From IMG/VR virus record IMGVR_UViG_3300044697_000087, positions 1 to 39,765 of that record: a DNA stretch of 39,765 nt; one strand, written 5' to 3'. The notes beneath the pieces were generated by a model. The model was not told the origin of the DNA and did no database searches. It worked only from the letters and a program-made list of their open reading frames with translations. Position 1 is the first letter of the stretch. Every line of letters begins with the position of its first letter. Shown here piece by piece: positions 8,907 to 39,765 of the stretch. This DNA comes from a virus. Both the position numbers and the translations under genes were made by a program.

Positions 8907-11900
8907 GCGAGTAAAGGCCCTGGTTGCATCGTTAGTTGGATGCCGTGCAACGTGATCTCCGCCGTGGCATAGGTTAGGTTTCGCATCTGCGCATCATTCA
9001 GCGTGATGCCGATCTGGAAAGTGTCGCCGATTAAAGAAGTATTGATGCGGTGCCAAATCTGATTCTGGCTGACAGCCGTAGGGCTCTGAATATTTACCAC
9101 AAAGTATTGGAAGCTAGTCGTCGTGACGACAGCCGTCGGCGCTACTGTAAAAGCAATCGTAACGAGACCTATTCCGTAGTCAATAGAAGATCCCAAAGAA
9201 GTTCCCGTTCCAGTTGCGGTAAACCCTCCGGTGCCATTATCGGTAAATGTAGCCACAGTGCCAACTTGAATAAAAACGCTCCCAGGCAGAAGAGGAGTAT
9301 TAATGCCAAAAAGATTAGCAAAATTAAAAATAAAACTTGTTTCAACTCCATTTCCAATAGTTCCTAGTGGTAAGTTTATGCAGTTTTGTAAGTAGTCCTC
9401 AGGAGCCGTGAATAAGGTTTGCGAGTAGATCAGAGTGTTGTTAATCGCCCCTTCTTCCGGTACAATTGGCCCCGCATTAAAAACAGAGTTCGGATCTTGA
9501 CTCAAATAGATGTTCAAGGTGACTTGGGCGCCGTCCGTTTTATCGAGCAAATATTTCTGGACCGCTAGGCGACTTTGACGGCCTCCTTCCCAATACACAT
9601 TGAACTGCTTTGTCTGTAACGTCGGTTGACACAGTTTCGAAAGTTTTCCAAGCCCCAAATATCCCGTTCCTGGATACAAAAGGTCCAAAACAAAGTTATT
9701 AGCATCTATCGTCTCTATAACTTTCCCTATGAGCCCATTTAATGTGGTGTTACCGATCATTCCGGTTACGTGGAGATAATCTCCCACTGCCACACAATGA
9801 TTCACTGAAGTGATCTGCGTGTTGGTACCAGAGGCAGTAATCGCCATAATCGACAACGAAGGATCTTCTCCCGTAGTTTCGTCCTTAATCAGAACATATC
9901 CCTGCGGTGTCCCTCCAATCACTTGAGAGAAGAGAGCGGCTGATGTTCCCGAGTTCCAAGGTTCTCGCCATTCGTTCCAGGTGTCGAAGGGCAGATTACC
10001 CCAATTTCTTCCCTGCTTCTCTCGGAAAAGACCATGGTGCGTGTAGTTCTCATAGAAAACTGCCCAAGTAACGTCCTTCCTATAGTTGTAGAGGAAAGAT
10101 TGTGTCGGAAAGACCCAATTGCTTCCGTCCACCGGATAGGCGAAATAGACCCATTCTCGAAAGAAGTCCCTGATCCCGTTTACACGCTCAGCTCCATTAT
10201 TCAGTCCCTGCACATTGAAAACGTTGTCGGGAATGTCCAGATCAATACGTTGACAGCTTTGTTGATCCGTTTGGACGAGCCCGTATTGTCCTAGAGAAAG
10301 ACCCCCTTTATCTAGGGTGATCCCTGAGAAAGTTGAGATTGTCCCAAGCTCCGAATTAATATTGAAGAAAGCAAAAGGATCAAAGTCGTCGCCGGTGGCA
10401 ATCAGGCGCACTTGCCGACCGTTCATTCCAAGGAGGAGAGCGCTTTCGTTGTTGGTGACGCTAAGGATCGATTGTTGAATACCTACCGCTTTATAACCTC
10501 CTCGTCCCGTCTGATCAACGTAATACGCCTCTATATTACTTCCGTCTGGTATTGGGGTGTCCGTAGGCACCAAAGTCGTGTAGTAAGGGGTGCCGTTCCA
10601 ACTCCAAAGAACCACATCGTACAGTTGGATTGGAGGTCCGCTACTCGTCTGGATCCAAGGAGAAAAGAAAAGCAGCCTGTCCTCAAAAGGCAATATCATG
10701 AGCGCCCCCACTAAGTAATAGAGCGCTGAAGTATAGTTTTCTATCTCGGTTTCGGTGGCCGTCAAAGGAGGGGCAAAGTTGACCCATCCAAGTCCACTTC
10801 CTGTAGGAATCCCGCTTCCGTTAGTAGGATCGCCATCGTACCACTTGATACCGTCTTGTCCAGGAATAGTGTTGGTTAGGAGTTGAGTTATCCCTGTGAT
10901 AGCGTCGGCTGCTGTCACATCTACAGTAAAAGTTACTACATAATCTCCACTCGCTGCGCCGCTCACCGATGTAACTTCTCCTGTCAATCCATTGAGGGTG
11001 CTTGGAGTAGGAAATTCGTTAAACCAGAGCATGTCTCCGACGACAAGTTTTGTAAAGTTGACGCCTCCCGACTTGAAGTTGAAAGTGATTTCCATGGTGC
11101 CGGTTCCAGAAATAACGGTCGCATTGACAAAGTTGAACCCAGGCACATTATTCGTTGCCCAGAGGGCGTTGGAGTAGCTCGTCGTCCAAAACTGCTGATA
11201 ATTAGCCCCACTCCAGAGAAACGGTACATTTGTTCCCTTGAAGTAGTTGACATTGTAGAAAAAGGGCTTTATCGGCTCCGTTACATTCTGGTTGATCTGA
11301 TAGCTGTATTCGGTGTCGAACGCCAGCAATAACGGATAAATATCTCCTGGGAAAGGGGAATTAAAGTCTTCGAGCCCCATCACAGGAAGAGCCGGATAGT
11401 AAGAGAAGGAGCCAGTCACTGAATCGGATCCCCCTCCCACAATCGTTATGATGGAAGTCGCGTAGTTTATCGTGCCAGAGCCCGCAGGAGTTCCTACAAG
11501 GACTCCATTTGGGGTGCCTGGTGGTTCTATGGCCTCAACATAGGTATTTGCGCCTACGGTCAAGGAAATCGATCCTGGAACGATTCCTCCATTAGGAGAT
11601 AGAATTGCTTCCCCTCCTGATATATACGCGCTAAAGCTCGTGGAATTGATGTTGACAGTCATCGAGGTAGCACTAACCGCCGTGATCACGCCCGATTGTC
11701 CATTGATCTGCGTCATTCCCACGACTCCCGAGAAAAGGACCGTTTCTCCCACACTAAAAACAGAACCCGTTATAGTGACAACTGCCATTGTGGCTTGCGT
11801 GATGCCGGTTATATAGGTTCCTAGAAGATTAGTGACGCCGCCTTCTAAGGTGAGAGCGGGAAATTGCCACGGCTCCGTGATGCTAGACGTAAGCACAACT

Positions 11901-19521: not shown

Positions 19522-21147
19522 TTACCCAAGCCTCATAGTAGACTTACGCTGCATCATTTTTTCGTAGGCGGCCTTTTTCAGTCGTTCTCTCGCTATTTCC
19601 GCATATTCCGATTCTTTTTCTATTCCAATTGAGCTAAATCCGAGGTTCTGAGCTGCAATGATAGTTGTGCCCGAGCCTGCAAAGGGGTCTAGAAGTAACC
19701 CATTTTCAGGTGGCATCACAAGCCGAATAAGATATTCCATGAGAAGAAGAGGTTTTACTGTAGGATGTTTATTCCCCTTCCCACGCTCTTTAGGAGATGT
19801 CTTTGAACAATAAAAAAAGCGTGAGCCACCTCCTTTAGAAGCTTCACATGTGTAAGTAGGATTGCGATAAGCATATTTTCCATAAATGGAATTTTTTTTA
19901 GGAGTAAAACAAGGAGAAACCTTTCCACTTTTTAATTCCCCAGTTTGTTCATCCAGATTCTTTGCCGATTCTTCGTCTAAGAGAAGTTTGGCAGGCCAGC
20001 GGCCTAAAGGTGATGTTTCATTTCCTCCGTTTCCTGTTGATCCCTGCTTAAAATTAACATTTCCGGTGCACGTTCCAGATCCCTTGGGGTTTTCTCCATT
20101 AGTCGGTATCCTACATCCATCAATGTTAATCCCCGCCTGTCCCCATTTCTCAGCATTCTGTTTGAAAGTGCCGTCGCACTTCTTCATAGCCATTATGATG
20201 GGTTGATAATCAGGGCTGAAATTTCCAGTGTCTTTTGAAATGGTCGGAGACAGACATGACTTCAAGATTTTCAGTTCGATTATCAAGTTTATCGCCGTTT
20301 TTATGGTGAACTTGTTCGCTCCTTGACAGAGACCTGCCAAGATGAGATTCCATAATAATCCGATGTTCAGCTCTGTAGTTACCATTGTGACGGAGATAGC
20401 GATATCCCGTATGCCGGCAAATATAACATCCTCCTCGCCACGAAGGATTCTTTTCTCCTTTGAATTTTCCGCTTTGCCATCGACCTTTGCACTTGTGCGA
20501 GCAAAAAACTCCTTCTCCCGATTTATCTTTTCTGACCATCCTTGCCAAGGGAATATAACATTCTTTATCGCAAGATTTGCATCGAAAAGTTTTTCCAGTT
20601 CGGAGGTTTTGACACTTTCTAGAGCAATATGTTTTAGCTCCCTGCTTAACCACACTTGGGAATCTCTCAAATTCTGATCCGCAGCGTTTACATCTAAGCT
20701 TAATTTTTGCCATTGGCATAATTCCTCTGTTAAATCGAGAAGAATTATACCTAAAATGTCATTAATTTCATAGGGTTTGGAACACATTATTATCGGTTCA
20801 TGCGCCGGTTTGAGAGCGGTTCCATATCCTTCTATGCCAAATTTGTTATGAGATTGGGGGAACCCACTGCCGTATATCCAGGCAATTGTATCCCGAATTT
20901 CCCACCCCGAATCTTCAATTGCCACTGCGAGTCGATGAGAGGTGCGTGTTCCCCCCATTGCAAGAAGATGACCACCTGGCTTGACGATTCTGAGGCACTC
21001 TCCCCAATATTCTTTTCCTGGAACAGCATGATCCCATCCTTTCCCCATAAAGGATAAACCATAAGGAGGATCTGTTACAATTGCCGAAAAATGGCAATCT
21101 TCAAATTTCTTCATCACTTCAAGAGAATCGCCGCACAATATTGTCAT
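19522..21147 (-). CDS. DNA methyltransferase (N4-cytosine/N6-adenine type) with inserted HNH gene
   Basis: 541 residues. TDPPYGL (25-31) is catalytic motif IV and LDPFAGSGTT (486-495) is the AdoMet-binding motif I; this order is the beta class. HPTVKP lies just before motif I. Residues about 122-318 are an insertion that is absent from usual relatives of about 350 residues. It lies where KPAHEPIIM should run into AMKKCDGTF, and PIIM appears on both sides. An HNH gene occupies the insertion in another frame, yet the methyltransferase frame has no stop through it. The start overlaps the scaffold stop by one base. Probably protects phage DNA from host restriction. Confidence 0.85.
   Translation of the reverse strand: MTILCGDSLEVMKKFEDCHFSAIVTDPPYGLSFMGKGWDHAVPGKEYWGECLRIVKPGGHLLAMGGTRTSHRLAVAIEDSGWEIRDTIAWIYGSGFPQSHNKFGIEGYGTALKPAHEPIIMCSKPYEINDILGIILLDLTEELCQWQKLSLDVNAADQNLRDSQVWLSRELKHIALESVKTSELEKLFDANLAIKNVIFPWQGWSEKINREKEFFARTSAKVDGKAENSKEKRILRGEEDVIFAGIRDIAISVTMVTTELNIGLLWNLILAGLCQGANKFTIKTAINLIIELKILKSCLSPTISKDTGNFSPDYQPIIMAMKKCDGTFKQNAEKWGQAGINIDGCRIPTNGENPKGSGTCTGNVNFKQGSTGNGGNETSPLGRWPAKLLLDEESAKNLDEQTGELKSGKVSPCFTPKKNSIYGKYAYRNPTYTCEASKGGGSRFFYCSKTSPKERGKGNKHPTVKPLLLMEYLIRLVMPPENGLLLDPFAGSGTTIIAAQNLGFSSIGIEKESEYAEIARERLKKAAYEKMMQRKSTMRLG
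20210..20719 (-). CDS. HNH homing endonuclease nested in methyltransferase gene
   Basis: 169 residues, out of frame with the surrounding methyltransferase. Two zinc-finger-like pairs come first (CKRCGSEFERF with CSRKC; CKSCDKECYI with CSHKC), then a linker with GYRYL. The HNH core is EHRIIMESHLGR with VHHKNGDKLDNRTENLEVMS, where HH, N and the following Asn/Glu are the metal-binding residues. GAGG precedes the ATG. This is the usual intron- or gene-borne endonuclease build. It likely cuts methyltransferase genes lacking the insert and spreads by repair. Intact. Confidence 0.88.
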   Translation of the reverse strand: MPMAKIKLRCKRCGSEFERFPSVVKQGAKTYCSRKCQNLRTGKTFRCKSCDKECYIPLARMVRKDKSGEGVFCSHKCKGRWQSGKFKGEKNPSWRGGCYICRHTGYRYLRHNGNYRAEHRIIMESHLGRSLSRSEQVHHKNGDKLDNRTENLEVMSVSDHFKRHWKFQP

Positions 21148-26911: not shown

Positions 26912-27333
26912 AGGGGTCCCTTTTCCACTCGTTCCCAAGCGATCGTAGCTGTTTCGATAAAGTCCTCCTTCTTTAGATCCATGTCAATCGCCCCTTGAGC
27001 CGCCATAGTGAGAGTCACTGCTGTTATTTCCTTTACGGAGGTTCCCTCTTTCGCAAAAAATCGGATCAATTTCTCGTAAATCTCGGTCATTTTTTCTATG
27101 TTGTCCATCCCCCTCCTATGATCCCATCCATCGTCAATAAGTAAATGGATGTCTTCTCGAGATAAATCCGTGATTTTGGCACATCTAATTAGCACTCCAA
27201 TACACCCTAGGATCTTGGTTATCACCCTGGGATTTTTTTGACGGACAAATTCGTCAATATCTTCATGAAAAGAAGCTATCTCTTGAATCAAATCTTCTCT
27301 TTCTTTTTCTGTGAGCTCTTCTAATAATTTCAT
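26908..27333 (-). CDS. Helical protein with two family repeats
   Basis: 141 residues from ATG 27333, which overlaps the RNA-ligase stop. It contains two copies of the small-protein pattern: ILGCIGVLIRCAKITDLSRE with DIHLLIDDGWD, and TLTMAAQGAIDMDLKKED with FIETATIAWERV. It looks like a fusion or an internal duplication within the tandem paralogue cluster. No known domain. Confidence 0.6.
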   Translation of the reverse strand: MKLLEELTEKEREDLIQEIASFHEDIDEFVRQKNPRVITKILGCIGVLIRCAKITDLSREDIHLLIDDGWDHRRGMDNIEKMTEIYEKLIRFFAKEGTSVKEITAVTLTMAAQGAIDMDLKKEDFIETATIAWERVEKGPL

Positions 27334-27968
27334 GCAAAATCCTTGCACTTCAGCTTCCACATGATCGGATTTCCGTTTCTAAAGAGCATGAGGGGTTCGG
27401 ATCTGGCAACAATACCCTCCATCGTCTGCGACTCTGTGCTGCATTGACTAGGAGGATCTTGCGTAACGAACTCCACAATCTGCGATTCGCTCATGAATCC
27501 TAGGTCCGGCACCATAGGAACGCCTAATGACTCCGCAACCCCTTTCACGTCCTCTTGTTGAAGCCACCACTCACCCACACGTACATCAAATAGTATGAAG
27601 CCCGCTTCTTTGCGGTACTTACCTCCACAGGCCTGGATTTTGTGGCCGTACCCTTCGCCATAAAGGATGATGCGGGATTCCTTGTTTCCCTTAAAAACGC
27701 CCAGAAGTTTATCTGGAGGAAATAGTTCTTCTAGAGTTCTCAGCAAATGAGGCGGAATTTGAGCGTCATTCGTGCGTCCTGCAAACAGAACATCTTTCCC
27801 ACACCCAGGATCGCGGATTATCACCCTAATGTTGGTCCCATCCACCTTTTCCGATACGCGCCACCATCCAACGCTAGCGAACTCGGGCTGCGCATAATCG
27901 CCCATAATGAGCTCGCGTTTTGCGTCTATGCGTCGTTTCCACAGACTATGAATTTTTGGATATTCCAT
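27330..27968 (-). CDS. RNA ligase, Rnl2-like
   Basis: 212 residues. Nucleotidyltransferase motifs in order: motif I KVDGTN with the AMP-accepting Lys41, motif III ILYGEGYG (101-108), motif IIIa GFILFDV (123-129), motif IV MEGIVAR (183-189) and motif V WKLKCKDF (204-211). The N-terminus YPKIHSLWKRR is usual for small phage Rnl2-type ligases. It seals nicked RNA, as in repair of tRNAs cut by host anticodon nucleases. GGGAGG precedes the ATG. It is embedded among the helical paralogues. No kinase/phosphatase partner is seen. Confidence 0.85.
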   Translation of the reverse strand: MEYPKIHSLWKRRIDAKRELIMGDYAQPEFASVGWWRVSEKVDGTNIRVIIRDPGCGKDVLFAGRTNDAQIPPHLLRTLEELFPPDKLLGVFKGNKESRIILYGEGYGHKIQACGGKYRKEAGFILFDVRVGEWWLQQEDVKGVAESLGVPMVPDLGFMSESQIVEFVTQDPPSQCSTESQTMEGIVARSEPLMLFRNGNPIMWKLKCKDFA

Positions 27969-28697: not shown

Positions 28698-28917
28698 TAC
28701 ATGATCGCCAACATGCGCGGAAGATCATGATAACATCCTCCTCCGACATTGGAATGGTTTTGCTTATCATAATCAATAACTTAATAGTTGCTTCGAATCC
28801 TAATATACAGGAAGCATCTAAATCACCTAACAATTGCCACATCTTTTGTATTAGTATAGCTGATTGGGGCAACCCCCCTTTCTTTAAATCCTCTTCCATC
28901 CTAAATTTTTCCCCCAA
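28666..28917 (-). CDS. Small helical protein, paralogue family member
   Basis: 83 residues: FRMEEDLKKGGLPQSAILIQ, then GFEATIKLLIMISKTIPMSE and EDVIMIFRACWRSCIEEKKE. The second half fits the family pattern (hydrophobic helix, SEED, then ..W.S..EE). Its start lies within the last codons of the terminase gene (34-base overlap), so it is coupled to it. Confidence 0.6.
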   Translation of the reverse strand: MGEKFRMEEDLKKGGLPQSAILIQKMWQLLGDLDASCILGFEATIKLLIMISKTIPMSEEDVIMIFRACWRSCIEEKKEGSDK

Positions 28918-30146
28918 TCGTCTGCTGGTTCGTTATATGCCCTTACCTTGTGCGTCGCGATCACATACCTAAGGGCGTCCATCGCATGGTCGTCCTGCTT
29001 CAAGGGCTCGTCATAGCCTTTTTTGGCGCTCCTCGCATCCCACACATAGCTCTCGATTTCTCTAATGGTGTTCTTGCATTCCTCGCACACAGTGAGAAGG
29101 CCTTCCTTCATCTTGGAAGTCATCTCCTGGATGCCAAACTCCACCTCGTTATTCGCGTGCACGACATGCAATCCCGCTCTCTGGAGCTCTAACTGAAACG
29201 CCTGCGCGCTCGGGTCAATGTAGATCGCCCTAGGGGCATAAGGTTCAAGAAAATCTATCATATCTCTTTTAAAGTCGCTATTCGTTTTTTGGTATCCGTT
29301 TTTTTCCGGATTCCAGTAATATTCCTTCTGAACCCACATATGGAGACCTGTATGGGAGAAACGCCCAGTGTTGACCCCTATGATCAGGCAGCAGAAAGGA
29401 TTAACAGTGCCATAATCGATGCCTGCGACAAAGTACTCCGCATTCATCGGAGGGCGTTCTTTAGTATGAACGTGGCGGTCAAAGAAATCAAAGATTGCCC
29501 CTTCGGCGAGACACCAGAGTCCGAGATAATTTCTCTTATAGAAGAGACCGGAAGCGCTGTTTCGAATCCGCGCCTTGTATTCCTCATCAACGTATGGGTT
29601 ATCGTCAAGGGTAAACTTAAGAGCGTAGTAATTAGGGTCGCCTGCTGCGGCCTTATCGATCCACTGCTTTAGCTTGTGGTTGGGGTGCGAAGGGTTCATC
29701 GAACCAAAACCCCTCGAATAAGGCTCTGATAGGCGCGTGTCGATCATGTCGATGATGGATTCCGGATAGAGGGTCATCTCGTCACAATAGACCAACGACA
29801 TGGTTTTTCCTTGAAAGACACCCAAACACCCTTCATCTTTGGCCCCCAGGGCCGGAATCACCTTGTCCCGATACGACAACTGACGCTTCCCTTTCTCCCA
29901 ATTGATAAAAGGCCTAAAGAAGGCCAACTGCGGCGACTCAAGCAGCAACCTTATAACGTTGTCAAAGACCGTCTGGCTCGTGTGCCCGACCATCCAGATG
30001 CGCGAGTCCACGCATGTGTGCACAGCATGCATAAAAGCGAATAAAGTGCCGATCGTTTTACCGGAACGCACAGATCCATGAGCTAGGTTCCAGTGGCGCG
30101 TGCAATTGGCTAAGAACTCAAGTTGACGGGGGGCTAATAAACTCAC
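28884..30146 (-). CDS. terL: Terminase large subunit
   Basis: 420 residues from GTG 30146. ATPase: Walker A GSVRSGKT (24-31), Walker B SLVYCDE (117-123). Nuclease: GIDYGTVNP with Asp244, YIDPS (Asp312) and DDHAMDALRY (385-394). These are the motor and headful-cutting nuclease motifs of the PBSX/T4-type large terminases. It docks on the portal and pumps DNA into the prohead. The GTG overlaps the stop of a tiny upstream ORF. Length is normal for the shorter forms of the family. Confidence 0.92.
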   Translation of the reverse strand: MSLLAPRQLEFLANCTRHWNLAHGSVRSGKTIGTLFAFMHAVHTCVDSRIWMVGHTSQTVFDNVIRLLLESPQLAFFRPFINWEKGKRQLSYRDKVIPALGAKDEGCLGVFQGKTMSLVYCDEMTLYPESIIDMIDTRLSEPYSRGFGSMNPSHPNHKLKQWIDKAAAGDPNYYALKFTLDDNPYVDEEYKARIRNSASGLFYKRNYLGLWCLAEGAIFDFFDRHVHTKERPPMNAEYFVAGIDYGTVNPFCCLIIGVNTGRFSHTGLHMWVQKEYYWNPEKNGYQKTNSDFKRDMIDFLEPYAPRAIYIDPSAQAFQLELQRAGLHVVHANNEVEFGIQEMTSKMKEGLLTVCEECKNTIREIESYVWDARSAKKGYDEPLKQDDHAMDALRYVIATHKVRAYNEPADDWGKNLGWKRI

Positions 30147-36059: not shown

Positions 36060-36812
36060 ATGAACTATTTACCAGACGGCGACGAAGAGTTAAAAGTCGA
36101 CAGACTTTATTGGAAAATGTCCCAAATGAAAGAAGGTGACAACAAATTTCGCATTGTAATGAGACCTATTGCAGGCTGGATCGATTGGAAGGACAATAAA
36201 CCTCTGCGCTTCCTGCCAGCGGATAAGCCCGCAAAGTCGCAAGACCCTGAGAAGCCGATGAAGCCTTTCTGGGCATGCTACGTATGGGATTATACAAGAG
36301 AGGGACTTTACATCCTTGAGATCACCCAGAACAGTATTCTAAAGACGTTGCGTTCTTTGACTAAGGACGACGACTGGGGCGACTTCACGCAGTATGACCT
36401 TAAGCTCAAGAAAGAGGGCGCCAATAAAGAGACAAAGTACACCTTGACGCCCTTACCACATAAGCCCTTGTCCGATAAGATCAAGGAAGCGCTGAAGAAA
36501 TATCCCGTAAGGCTCGAAGAGCTGTATGAGGGAGGAGATCCCTGGAATCCGGACCTCAATCGAGAGACAGGCGAAATCCTTCTTGAAGTGGGGAAAGTCC
36601 AAAATCCCCTCGAAGTGCTCAAAGAGAAGCTGGAAATGGAAAAAATCGCCACTGACAAACTCGAAGGTTTCCTGGAAAACCGCGCCCAGCAAGGAGAGAA
36701 GCCGATTGCGACGGTCATCTCTTCCGCGTTAAATGAGCGCGTCTATCCTAGGTTCAAGCAAATGTATCAGAACTTCATCAGTGGCGACGTTAGCGTCCTT
36801 CCTGCCACCTAA
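36060..36812 (+). CDS. Single-stranded DNA-binding-like protein
   Basis: 250 residues. An N-terminal domain with KEGDNKFRIVMRPIAGWIDW, KPFWACYVWDYTREGLYILE, then SILKTLRSLTKDDDWGDFTQ and YDLKLKKEG resembles the OB-like core of phage single-strand-binding proteins (pattern KF R.L...G......P......W..YVWDY). A charged C-terminal helix region follows. It should coat single-stranded DNA during replication and recombination. It is last in the early operon and is followed by a strong terminator. Confidence 0.7.
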   Translation: MNYLPDGDEELKVDRLYWKMSQMKEGDNKFRIVMRPIAGWIDWKDNKPLRFLPADKPAKSQDPEKPMKPFWACYVWDYTREGLYILEITQNSILKTLRSLTKDDDWGDFTQYDLKLKKEGANKETKYTLTPLPHKPLSDKIKEALKKYPVRLEELYEGGDPWNPDLNRETGEILLEVGKVQNPLEVLKEKLEMEKIATDKLEGFLENRAQQGEKPIATVISSALNERVYPRFKQMYQNFISGDVSVLPAT

Positions 36813-36821
36813 CTATCGTTT

Positions 36822-36873
36822 GGTCCAGGGATTAGGTTGTCGTATCCGACAAAGAGATCCTTGGGCCTTTTTT
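36822..36873 (+). terminator. Rho-independent terminator of early operon
   Basis: GGTCCAGGGAT pairs along eleven positions with ATCCTTGGGCC. Within the loop a second hairpin TTGTCG-TATC-CGACAA forms. TTTTTT follows at once (36868-36873). Ends the transcript just after the single-strand-binding gene. Confidence 0.85.
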
Positions 36874-36942
36874 CGTCAATGCGGAAATTCTTTCTTTGAA
36901 AATTTATCTGGAAATCTTTTTTTGGGATCTTTAGCCTGGAAG

Positions 36943-36974
36943 AAAAAAAAGAGGCCCCGAGTTGTCTCGGAGCC
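36943..36974 (-). terminator. Strong minus-strand terminator between early operon and initiator
   Basis: Minus strand GGCTCCGAG-ACAA-CTCGGGGCC (nine pairs, one G-T) followed by TCTTTTTTTT. No minus-strand gene ends nearby; the closest upstream one is the fibre gene stopping at 38281. It would halt antisense transcription before the early operon. The rest of 36875-37123 holds a possible plus-strand promoter (TTGGTT 36997, 16 bases, TAGAAT 37019) and a purine-only A-rich tract (37068-37095). Confidence 0.8.
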
Positions 36975-36996
36975 CCCCAACCTTGAGAAGTCTCTA

Positions 36997-37024
36997 TTGG
37001 TTATCCTACTCTCATATGTAGAAT
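36997..37024 (+). promoter_or_regulatory. Candidate promoter of replication initiator
   Basis: TTGGTT, 16-base spacer, TAGAAT, about 100 bases before the initiator ATG. It follows terminators on both strands, so the initiator needs its own start. The match is moderate. Confidence 0.4.
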
Positions 37025-37123
37025 AACGCCATCCATTCTATCTTTATTTTGTTAGAAAGCAACAAAAAAAAGAAAGAAAAAAAAGAAAGGGACTTCTGAG
37101 GTTGATAAACCCCAGGAGATCCA

Positions 37124-38188
37124 ATGAATCTTTGTACAAAACTGAGTGCCAGTTCTCGCCTTCTGTTAATAGAAATAAATAATCTTTGTAAAAAAGAAGG
37201 CCACTGCTGGGCTTCCAATCAATACCTTTCCGATTCTTTGCATATCAGCTTAGCTACCATTAAAAGATCCCTATCGAATTTACATCGCCACGGTCTGATT
37301 TCAATCGTTACAACAAAACTCTTTATCAAATGGGACAGGAAAATCTTCATTTCAGATGAAGTTAAAGAAATGTTTACGAAGGGTCATAAAATAATTTTTA
37401 CGAAGGCTCAAAATGCTCTGGTTCCGAAGGCTCAAAATGCTCTGGTTCCGAAGGCTCAAAATGCTCTGGTTCCGAAGGCTCAAAATGCTCTGGTTCCGAA
37501 GGCTCATTCAAATAATTTTTACGAAGGCTCAAAAGTGACCCTTCGCCGAAGGCTCAAAAGTGACCCACTACTATTAAGTACTAATTCTAATATTAAATTA
37601 AAATTAAGGGGGGACCCGCGCGCGCACACGACCCCCCCTGAAACTACCCAGCTTGAAGGGAAGGGCGGGGGCTCTGCCCCCTGCAACCCCTCCCCCTCCC
37701 TTTTTTTTGGAAATGTAGAACTTTCGGAAGAAGAGCACAGAAAACTCTTAGAAACCTACGGACAAGAAGTCACGGCTCAATTTATCGAGGAGCTAGATGA
37801 CTATTCACACCGAAGGCCCGACAAATTTTCCAAGGAAAGATCGCATTACCATGTTCTGAAAAAGTGGATAAAGAGGGAAAGAACTATGGAAAATAACCAA
37901 AAATTAGGACAAACTCCCCCTAAACCCAGACATCTTGAGGAAGTTTCTCTAGAAAAACACCGTGAACACGACCTAAAAAATCAACAGTTTGTCGAAAAGA
38001 TACGCCTACAATACGAAGGCCATGAGGAGTTGAACTTTTGGATCGACGGCATTCAATATTGGCCCAAAGGCAATAAGATTGGGATAACCGACAGATCTCT
38101 GGAAGCTAAGTGCACAGATGTTAATTTTAAAGAAAACGCCATTTTCATCTTGAGAAAATTGGAACTGTCGCCAATGGCCTTAACTTGA
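37124..38188 (+). CDS. Replication initiator with embedded origin
   Basis: 354 residues. Residues 8-65 are a winged helix (SSRLLLIEINNLCKKEGHCW, ASNQYLSDSLHIS, ATIKRSLSNLHRHGLI) as in lambda-O/DnaD-like initiators. Residues about 87-130 are four copies of KAQNALVP encoded by the iterons. A low-complexity linker follows. VELSEEEHRKLLETYGQE...FIEELDDY...HYHVLKKWIKRE is the C-terminal element usual in phage replication proteins. It should bind the iterons within its own gene and bring in the host helicase. CAGGAGATCC precedes the ATG. Confidence 0.8.
   Translation: MNLCTKLSASSRLLLIEINNLCKKEGHCWASNQYLSDSLHISLATIKRSLSNLHRHGLISIVTTKLFIKWDRKIFISDEVKEMFTKGHKIIFTKAQNALVPKAQNALVPKAQNALVPKAQNALVPKAHSNNFYEGSKVTLRRRLKSDPLLLSTNSNIKLKLRGDPRAHTTPPETTQLEGKGGGSAPCNPSPSLFFGNVELSEEEHRKLLETYGQEVTAQFIEELDDYSHRRPDKFSKERSHYHVLKKWIKRERTMENNQKLGQTPPKPRHLEEVSLEKHREHDLKNQQFVEKIRLQYEGHEELNFWIDGIQYWPKGNKIGITDRSLEAKCTDVNFKENAIFILRKLELSPMALT
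37378..37638 (+). other. Replication origin: eight iterons, AT-rich tract, GC-rich palindrome
   Basis: CGAAGGCTC recurs at 37401, 37425, 37449, 37473, 37497, 37522 and 37547, with the variant CGAAGGGTC at 37378, at steps of 23-25 bases. AATAATTTTTACGAAGG stands at both edges (about 37389 and 37511). Directly after is an AT-rich run (37567-37607), then GGGGGG (37608-37613), CGCGCGCGCACACG and CCCCCCC (37632-37638). Iterons inside the initiator gene followed by an unwinding region is the lambda ori plan. No experiment is available. Confidence 0.75.
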
Positions 38189-38255
38189 CCTACAATCAAC
38201 GATCTAAAAACAGGCTACATTGGTATTGGTGAGGTATCGATCGTTTTACTTAGGT

Positions 38256-38279
38256 CAAATAAAGGGCATTCTTGGCCCA
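38256..38279 (-). terminator. Weak terminator after fibre operon
   Basis: Minus strand GGGC-CAAGAAT-GCCC then TTTATTTG, immediately after the fibre stop at 38281. The stem is only four pairs, so read-through toward 36974 is likely. The gap 38189-38280 shows nothing else. Confidence 0.4.
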
Positions 38280-38280
38280 T

Positions 38281-39567
38281 TTAATTTGTGAAATAGAAAC
38301 CTTGAACCACAATCGAAGTGTTGTTGGCAAAGTTGGCATCCGTCATCTGTGCCGAACCCGCATTGACGCTGTAATACAGACCCATGGTTGTTTCTGTAGG
38401 AAGAACTTCTCCTAAAATCTGAAAAGTATTCGCTGGAAAACTTGTGACGCTCATGTTGCAGAAAAGATTGCTGCCAGTGGTGAGAGAAGCTCCTGCCGCT
38501 GAAGGAAGCGTCTGGATTGTGGCTGCGCCGGACGCACTTCCCTTGCTCGTAAGAACTATTCCTATCGCCACAAAAACGATATTTCCGAAAACAGTGTAGA
38601 TGGCGTTTTGCGATGAATAAGTTATGCCAGTGGATGAACCTCCAAAAGCAATTGTTGGCGTAAAATTGCCAGTTGTGTAGAATCCTGAGGCCAAGGAAAC
38701 AAATCCGTTGGCGTCAACCGCAAACTGATTGTCGTTAAAATGCGAGACACCGTTATCGGCAAGCGTCGAAGACGCCACTGCTTGGGAACGTTGGACCTGG
38801 ATTGTGAAAGTGTTAGCCGCTAAGGAATCTGTTCGGATAACATTGGCCGTGGTGCCTGCTGCAACTTGTCCCCCTGTGATGGTGACGAGGCCACCACTCG
38901 TTGGAAGAACAGGATTAGTTCCTGGCGGAGTATGGGCGTCCACACCAATCGAATTTATGGAGTTTCCCGCAGTCAAAGAGACAAACCCGTTGGAGTCAAC
39001 AGAAAATTCGGTGTCATTGAAGCTGGCGGTCCCTAGATTGGCCTTTGAGGAAGACGCTGCGGCAACTGTAGGTGTGCCTACCACTGTCAAGGTCGATCCC
39101 GACCCCGTAGTGAGTACCCCTTGGGTGCCTAGCACGTTGAGGTTGTTCGCAGATGAAATAGCTGTGCCGCTGTTAGCTGTGTAGGTGAGGGCGACTTCTG
39201 GCCCTGCGCTGATGGTGATGGTCGAGGTAGCAGGAGTTCCTGTCGTTAGGATGGAAGTAGTATCGCCAAGAAGAGATATCTCGTTTCCCGTTGGGAAGAC
39301 ATCTCCTCCAGTATTGGGAATAAGACTCTGGACCATGTTGGTGCCGGCGATCTTGATCCAATCTGCCAGAACTTGGCCCGACGTCGAGGTGAATCCTTTT
39401 AGGAACCAAAAATCATTGGAAACGGTGTTGAGCCATTGCTTCTGAACTGGATACAAAATGTCGTAGACAGTTGGATCACGCGCCTCAAATTGCACAATAA
39501 AGGCGTTGTTCGAATTGGTGCCGTTGGCTAAGACGTAGGTGTTATTTGGTATGGGTTGATTGGTCAT
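38281..39567 (-). CDS. Tail fibre protein
   Basis: 428 residues. The N-terminal module (PVQKQWLNTVSNDFWFLKGF, TSTSGQ) is shared with the fibre at 3296. Two copies of FND..F.VD.NGFVSL (about residues 185-200 and 280-295) mark repeated shaft units. The C-terminal about 150 residues (FTPTIAFGG, YTVFGNIVFVAIGI, LPSAAGA) form a tip domain met on many phage fibres. It is last in the leftward fibre operon, starting 11 bases after the spike stop. With four fibre-like genes the virion may carry more than one adhesin. Confidence 0.8.
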   Translation of the reverse strand: MTNQPIPNNTYVLANGTNSNNAFIVQFEARDPTVYDILYPVQKQWLNTVSNDFWFLKGFTSTSGQVLADWIKIAGTNMVQSLIPNTGGDVFPTGNEISLLGDTTSILTTGTPATSTITISAGPEVALTYTANSGTAISSANNLNVLGTQGVLTTGSGSTLTVVGTPTVAAASSSKANLGTASFNDTEFSVDSNGFVSLTAGNSINSIGVDAHTPPGTNPVLPTSGGLVTITGGQVAAGTTANVIRTDSLAANTFTIQVQRSQAVASSTLADNGVSHFNDNQFAVDANGFVSLASGFYTTGNFTPTIAFGGSSTGITYSSQNAIYTVFGNIVFVAIGIVLTSKGSASGAATIQTLPSAAGASLTTGSNLFCNMSVTSFPANTFQILGEVLPTETTMGLYYSVNAGSAQMTDANFANNTSIVVQGFYFTN

Positions 39568-39578
39568 TAATATTGTTC

Positions 39579-39765
39579 CTAGGATAAGATGTACTCTTGA
39601 ATTACAATGACTCCTTTGGCTCCTGCGCCCCCCGTAAACCCAGAATTAGTTCCAGCCGCTATGGTGCCACCTCCTCCCGAACCGTATCCGTTGGCAGCAG
39701 CTCCCGTTGAATTTACCGCCGTTCCTGCGCCTCCAGCTCCTAATTGAGTTGAAGCGCCAGTTCCT
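39579..39765 (-). CDS. C-terminal end of the beta-helix fibre/spike (continues at base 1509-1)
   Basis: Same gene as 1-1509. After base 1 the frame continues from 39611 with VIVIQEYILS and TAG at 39579. Bases 39612-39765 duplicate 1-154. Read on the circle, the protein is 513 residues. See the left entry. Confidence 0.85.
   Translation of the reverse strand, partial: GTGASTQLGAGGAGTAVNSTGAAANGYGSGGGGTIAAGTNSGFTGGAGAKGVIVIQEYILS
39612..39765. repeat. Terminal direct repeat, right copy
   Basis: Copy of 1-154 with one silent difference (39738). Marks the circular joint. Confidence 0.9.

Follow-up and report, generated by a model that had tools for sequence, protein, structure and literature searches.

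The window analyzed here spans an entire virus record (39,765 bases) and very probably carries a theta-replication origin, located in the part of the phage's own HTH_36 initiator gene that encodes the linker. We infer that the initiator binds here, that the DNA melts, that helicase is recruited, and that replication starts from this place. The lambda-style in-gene origin put forward in the original prediction was supported by iterons that occur in all three codon phases, an adjoining AT-rich tract, the HTH_36 domain of the encoded protein, recurrence of the layout in related phages, and the precedent of lambda itself. In-gene origins have been documented in a handful of model phages and in staphylococcal plasmids, and the present case would extend them to a group of uncultivated phages.

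Repeat array within the initiator gene

Seven exact copies of CGAAGGCTC and one variant, CGAAGGGTC, which is the first of the series, form an array of eight iterons spanning 37377-37555 (Table 1); the copies had been predicted and their positions were confirmed in the sequence. The steps between them were 24, 24, 24, 24, 24, 25, and 25 bp, a narrower range than the 23 to 25 bases first given. All eight lie inside the ORF at 37124-38188, where we had taken at least three repeats of ~20 bp within an initiator coding sequence as the mark of an in-gene array. Across the window, 23 matches to CGAAGGCTC with at most one mismatch were detected, versus 9.5 ± 3.2 in dinucleotide shuffles, 0/100 of which reached 23. 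A scan of the whole record for short-period repeats gave the iteron array a score of 177 and the runner-up a score of 15, more than a tenfold difference, and revealed no second comparable array. Copies 2-5 and the start of copy 6 make up a perfect 24-bp tandem array of 4.4 units, which looks like a recent amplification of half-sites, and AAATAATTTTTACGAAGGCTCAAAA recurs 121 bp apart in the flanks of the array.

Alignment of the iterons gave the consensus T--TTNCGAAGG(C/G)TCA(A/T)AA. Iteron 7 forms a nearly perfect palindrome of 24 bp, CGAAGGCTCA-AAAG-TGACCCTTCG, with a 4-nt center and 9/10 arm pairs, which about 1 in 10,000 positions of the record attain. Iteron 8 is partly palindromic (5/10 arm pairs; genome mean, 2.5), and iterons 1-6 are single half-sites with palindrome scores of 1-3 of 10. 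Only two of the eight iterons therefore have an inverted second half, and both adjoin the AT tract, an unusual combination of iteron types; this coincidence of the palindromic iterons with the AT-proximal pair is notable and may be a functional arrangement. Each iteron of a strict lambda-type array is an inverted repeat that forms a dimer site. Because the inverted half was found in only two iterons here, we do not file the origin as a strict lambda-type array; in its working it would resemble ori-lambda.

Table 1 Coordinates of the putative origin and the initiator gene in the window
Feature	Coordinates	Strand	Basis
Initiator gene, 354 aa	37124..38188	+	ORF, PF13730, PHROGs, AlphaFold2 model
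Winged-helix domain coding region, proposed iteron-binding part	37124..37378	+	Pfam, model
Iteron 1, variant CGAAGGGTC, codon phase 1 (KGH)	37377..37385	+	
Iteron 2, codon phase 1 (KAQ)	37401..37409	+	
Iteron 3, codon phase 1 (KAQ)	37425..37433	+	
Iteron 4, codon phase 1 (KAQ)	37449..37457	+	
Iteron 5, codon phase 1 (KAQ)	37473..37481	+	
Iteron 6, codon phase 1 (KAH)	37497..37505	+	
Iteron 7, codon phase 2 (YEGS), 24-bp palindrome with inverted second half-site	37522..37545	+	
Iteron 8, codon phase 0 (RRLKS), partial inverted second half TGACCC	37547..37570	+	
AT-rich tract, proposed unwinding element, 87.5% AT	37569..37608	.	composition
G6/C7 inverted repeat around alternating CGCGCGCGCACACG	37608..37638	.	
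Second hairpin GGGGGCTCTGCCCCC and C-rich tract	~37667..37699	.	

Constraint on the DNA word

A single 9-mer, CGAAGGCTC, is read in all three frames: phase 1 in copies 1-6, of which copy 1 is the variant, phase 2 in copy 7, and phase 0 in copy 8, with the corresponding peptides given in Table 1. Since the 9-mer was kept across all codon phases, selection acted on the DNA and not on a peptide repeat. KAQNALVP does occur four times in the initiator protein, and the predicted forcing of this peptide by the repeats held for the in-phase copies; it did not extend to copies 7 and 8, which encode unrelated peptides. When synonymous codons were shuffled with the protein fixed, seven copies were obtained in 0/300 shuffles (maximum, 4), and both out-of-frame copies survived in 0.04% of 5,000 synonymous shuffles. 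Lambda O, used as a yardstick, behaved in the same manner: four iterons are annotated within the gene, in line with the original prediction, its 9-mer is read in phases 0, 2, and 1, and the shuffle null was 0/300. Codon-phase use is the best evidence for DNA-level constraint on the iterons of the window, and the repeats are constrained as DNA, not as peptide.

AT-rich tract and hairpins

The predicted 40-base AT-rich run lies directly 3' of the last iteron (Table 1), and 40-mers as AT-rich as this one were found at only two places in the record. The predicted G6/C7 palindrome is likewise present, with G6 at 37608 and C7 at 37632 folding as an inverted repeat around CCCGCGCGCGCACACGA and the alternating CG/CA sequence between the arms. 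In two related phages (L036 and L039), a GC hairpin or C-tract occupies a place resembling that of the second hairpin of the window. Four different initiator genes of phages also have alternating CG (GCGCACRCGACCCC or CGCGCGCG) 3' of their iterons and AT tract, at 37617-37630 in the window, 1193-1206 in L038 (minus strand), CDS 417 in L073, and CDS 408 in L113.

Initiator protein

The product of the gene matched PF13730 (HTH_36) over residues 6-59 (E = 3.5e-9; 36.8 bits against a Pfam cut-off of 25). It also matched 12 PHROG families, the best at E = 9.8e-9, that are annotated as replication initiation, O-like, replisome organizer, or helicase loader. Weak O-like matches were phrog_678 (E = 4.9e-5) and, by fold in BFVD, one putative O protein at E = 3e-4. 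Neither a lambda-O family nor RepA_N (PF06970) was among the Pfam matches of the initiator at E ≤ 0.1. Searching the PDB by sequence gave no credible relative, a search of plasmid proteins returned weak HTH matches only, and Foldseek against the PDB gave nothing below E 0.001, its matches being generic winged helices.

An AlphaFold2 model, built on an alignment of 17 sequences, predicted a winged helix at approximately residues 1-85 (pLDDT ~75-97, with the Pfam part at about 95), a disordered linker at residues 93-188 (pLDDT < 50), and a C-terminal helical domain at ~192-260 (pLDDT mostly 76-93), followed by a weakly predicted tail. In VIA-align comparisons, the winged helix matched chains of 4pql and 4pt7, titled DNA-binding protein N-terminal domain or initiator, at Z 9.2-9.6, and LexA or MarR-type proteins scored level with them. 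Because many winged helices match equally well, the fold supports DNA binding and points to no specific family. In DNA coordinates the predicted linker covers ~37400-37687 and nearly coincides with the iterons, AT tract, and hairpins. A disordered linker would leave the DNA that encodes it free to evolve as an origin and to shift codon phase.

Genome context

The ends of the record (1-154 and 39612-39765) overlap by 154 bases with one mismatch, which indicates one genome unit of ~39.6 kb; from these sequences, the genome is probably complete and terminally redundant or circularised. A GC-skew switch, proposed as a check on the origin, was absent at the iteron site, where only a small dip near 38 kb was seen. 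The cumulative GC-skew minimum fell at 34.4 kb, where gene orientation changes, and tracks that orientation. The skew check thus lends the origin no support, although GC skew in a 40-kb phage is weak evidence for or against an origin. Matches to DnaB_C or IstB/DnaC were not found in the record, which is unusual, and by these families the gene set differs from an SPP1-type module, in which helicase and loader accompany the initiator.

Upstream of the initiator gene, the minus strand has a terminator-like stem-loop with a T-run (36949-36978). Elsewhere in the window, an RNA-ligase-like gene (27330-27968) and a large N6/N4 DNA methyltransferase gene (19522-21147) were noted. Portal-gene relatives (61-72% identity; L029-L035) came from contigs of ≤40 kb binned into MAGs whose labels differ widely, namely Simkania, Patescibacteria, Bacteroidales, and Nitrospiraceae.

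Related phage initiators

Phages that have an SSB-like gene, terminase, or portal in common with the window were gathered from viral and genome collections, and their HTH_36-type initiators were located. A direct search of viral contigs for close relatives of the initiator found none; the exact iteron unit was likewise not found in viral contigs, and none of the initiators that were located has iterons related in sequence to those of the window. The initiator types, aligned all together, were too divergent for searching. Because an exact 9-mer statistic missed the degenerate iterons of the relatives, repeats were scored as 10-of-12 matches and compared with synonymous shuffles.

Nine of the 11 initiators from terminase-, portal-, or SSB-sharing phages passed this test (p < 0.05), with repeats that lay mostly directly after the winged helix and were unrelated in sequence to those of the window. 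The iteron of L036, GGCCCGAAAACGGGCC, is found in all three codon phases, and past it lie a tract of 85% AT and a CCCCCTAAAGGGGG hairpin; that of L039, TGACAAAAATGTC, is followed by GGGGCTAAAGCCCC and a C-tract; the iterons of L038, L045, and L058 are TGGTTCAAAAAATGAACCA, GATTCA-N5-TGAATC, and TGCCCAAAAGGGCA, respectively. Several of the relatives' iterons are, like those of lambda, short palindromes centered on an A-tract. Two relatives have DnaB near their initiator gene.

Within the window-type family in viral contigs, 38 of 42 non-redundant initiators carried in-gene repeats beyond the level forced by the protein, and 7/84 neighboring ORFs passed the same synonymous-shuffle test. These repeats have periods of 22, 23, 24, and 45 bp and center near residue 112, and 45% of repeat pairs stand at offsets not divisible by three. 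The position of the AT maximum relative to the repeat cluster was uninformative, since the cluster definition took in AT-rich codon repeats; it was replaced by the AT profile after the last exact iteron, for which 15 genes with exact 9-mer families remained. In these genes AT content was 0.78-0.80 over the 40 bp past the last iteron, versus ~0.6 on either side and ~0.62 elsewhere. The layout provides a simple sequence test for candidate origins, namely an AT-rich tract preceded by in-gene repeats with shifting codon phase, which needs no experiments and whose repeat part was passed by the great majority of these same-type initiators.

A second HTH_36 initiator type (L147-L226, aligned as A3) has in-frame repeats of 15 and 30 bp that encode pentapeptides in a linker near residue 127. 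Among A3 initiators, 38/59 were above the synonymous-shuffle expectation, with an AT-rich stretch past the last repeat where exact families exist; the 15-bp step is odd for helical phasing. In L003, two copies of TTGACACGNTATTGTGTCA stand 27 bp apart (9601-9650) upstream of the related phage's putative initiator and look like operator sites.

Alternative explanations

If KAQNALVP were simply a linker repeat of the protein, propagated by slippage and with no function as DNA, this would account for the repeated octapeptide and for the perfect in-frame 24-bp tandem, and slippage probably did amplify the tandem copies within a linker that is predicted to be disordered. However, the last two copies keep the 9-mer in other codon phases, where it encodes unrelated peptides, and shuffles that preserve the protein fail to reproduce the array. 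The reuse of AAATAATTTTTACGAAGGCTCAAAA in both flanks and the similar layout, with different sequences, of most window-type relatives also argue against a purely protein-level repeat, which is left very improbable; codon phase was the ground for rejecting it. The iterons could instead serve the initiator, or a repressor, as operators for repression of the initiator gene, with the true origin elsewhere. Iteron-binding initiators often autoregulate, sites within the gene could block transcription, and the missing skew switch at the iterons fits an origin elsewhere. Yet the array lies 250-430 bp into the gene and is followed immediately by an AT-rich tract, as in proven origins; the record has no second array like it, and relatives keep the layout but not the sequence. 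A scan for promoter-type sequences over 36700-38300 gave nothing above chance level. We regard the operator explanation as unlikely, if slightly less so than the protein linker repeat.

The least probable of the alternatives, to which we give hardly any weight, is that the array serves packaging initiation, recombination, or partition. Repeat arrays do act as packaging or centromere-like sites in other systems, but this one is at least 7 kb from the terminase gene (28884-30146) and sits inside a replication-initiation gene, and its order of iterons and then AT tract matches ori-lambda and related initiators.

Proposed mechanism

Under the in-gene origin that we favor, the winged helix would bind the iterons, as its domain assignment and precedent suggest. 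The initiator would occupy the two AT-proximal palindromes probably as dimers or larger assemblies, and the other half-sites as single heads. By the precedent of lambda, SPP1 oriL, and pSK41, the resulting nucleoprotein complex would bend and strain the DNA, and the adjacent 40-bp AT tract would melt. The C-terminal domain may then help to recruit the replicative helicase and primase, which is the least certain step. Neither a DnaB nor a DnaC-type gene was found in the phage, so that helicase and primase presumably come from the host; this gap in downstream recruitment weighs against the in-gene origin, as does the lack of an inverted second half in six of the eight iterons. The GC hairpins may, as a guess, bound the opened region or serve as landing sites. 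A disordered and, by the precedent of pSK41, dispensable linker would explain how the DNA drifted through the reading frames, and the layout predicts that the linker is an expendable segment of the protein.

A more speculative extension, which we hold to be rather doubtful, is that the array is a hybrid of two iteron designs. In such a hybrid, the AT-proximal dimer-type palindromes would carry out unwinding, as in lambda, and the six distal half-sites would mainly concentrate or titrate the initiator, as in plasmids. The linkers of HTH_36 phage initiators would then act generally as an "origin cassette," with DNA that evolves unconstrained by the reading frame.

Comparison with known systems

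A close parallel in layout is the lambda origin in gene O, which shares with the window iterons in mid-gene past an N-terminal DNA-binding domain, a spacing of ~20-25 bp, an A-tract at the iteron center, use of three codon phases, and a 40-bp AT-rich tract adjoining the last iteron. Every lambda iteron is an inverted repeat that an O dimer binds, and replication in vitro needs only the two that adjoin the AT tract (PMC5043065, PMC7466680). In contrast, two of the eight iterons of the window have an inverted half. Lambda and lambdoid phages have 4-6 iterons (six in Stx phages) and the window has eight; the window also differs from lambda in having no Pfam lambda-O match and no adjacent DnaC-type loader or helicase gene found. 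A lambda-like origin has also been proposed, as a prediction only, in the replication gene fhv_0043 of Francisella phage KIRK, outside the enteric lambdoids (PMC7924643).

Bacillus phage SPP1 carries oriL in gene 38, where direct repeats and an AT-rich unwinding element are bound by the initiator (PMC6316719), and gp38/oriL thus resembles the window in its in-gene direct repeats and AT-rich element. SPP1 has its own loader (gp39), helicase (gp40), and second origin (oriR); in the window, neither a DnaB_C or IstB/DnaC match nor another repeat array was found. The Rep_3 iteron plasmids (P1, F, RK2, pSC101, and R6K) likewise have direct-repeat iterons beside an AT-rich tract (PMC5043065), and the mostly half-site iterons of the window resemble these direct repeats. 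Their initiators belong to another family, and in the staphylococcal plasmid pSK639 the repeats lie upstream of rep (PMC5703833).

The rep gene of the staphylococcal RepA_N plasmid pSK41 combines a winged-helix N terminus, central repeats, an origin-coded linker, and a separate C-terminal domain, as does the window initiator, and the pSK41 initiator still works in trans without its ori-coded central domain (PMC5703833). RepA_N plasmids differ in that PF06970 is not among the Pfam matches of the window initiator, and the window is a phage genome. The N terminus of pPR9 rep is PF13730 and phage-like (reviewed in PMC5703833), so that this hybrid initiator and that of the window share the same N-terminal Pfam family; by analogy, pPR9 is the nearest tested relative in kind. 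The best reading of these likenesses is that the origin would function like ori-lambda, SPP1 oriL, or the pSK41 rep origin. The in-gene arrangement is already known, and the window is a clear fresh example of it, not new in kind.
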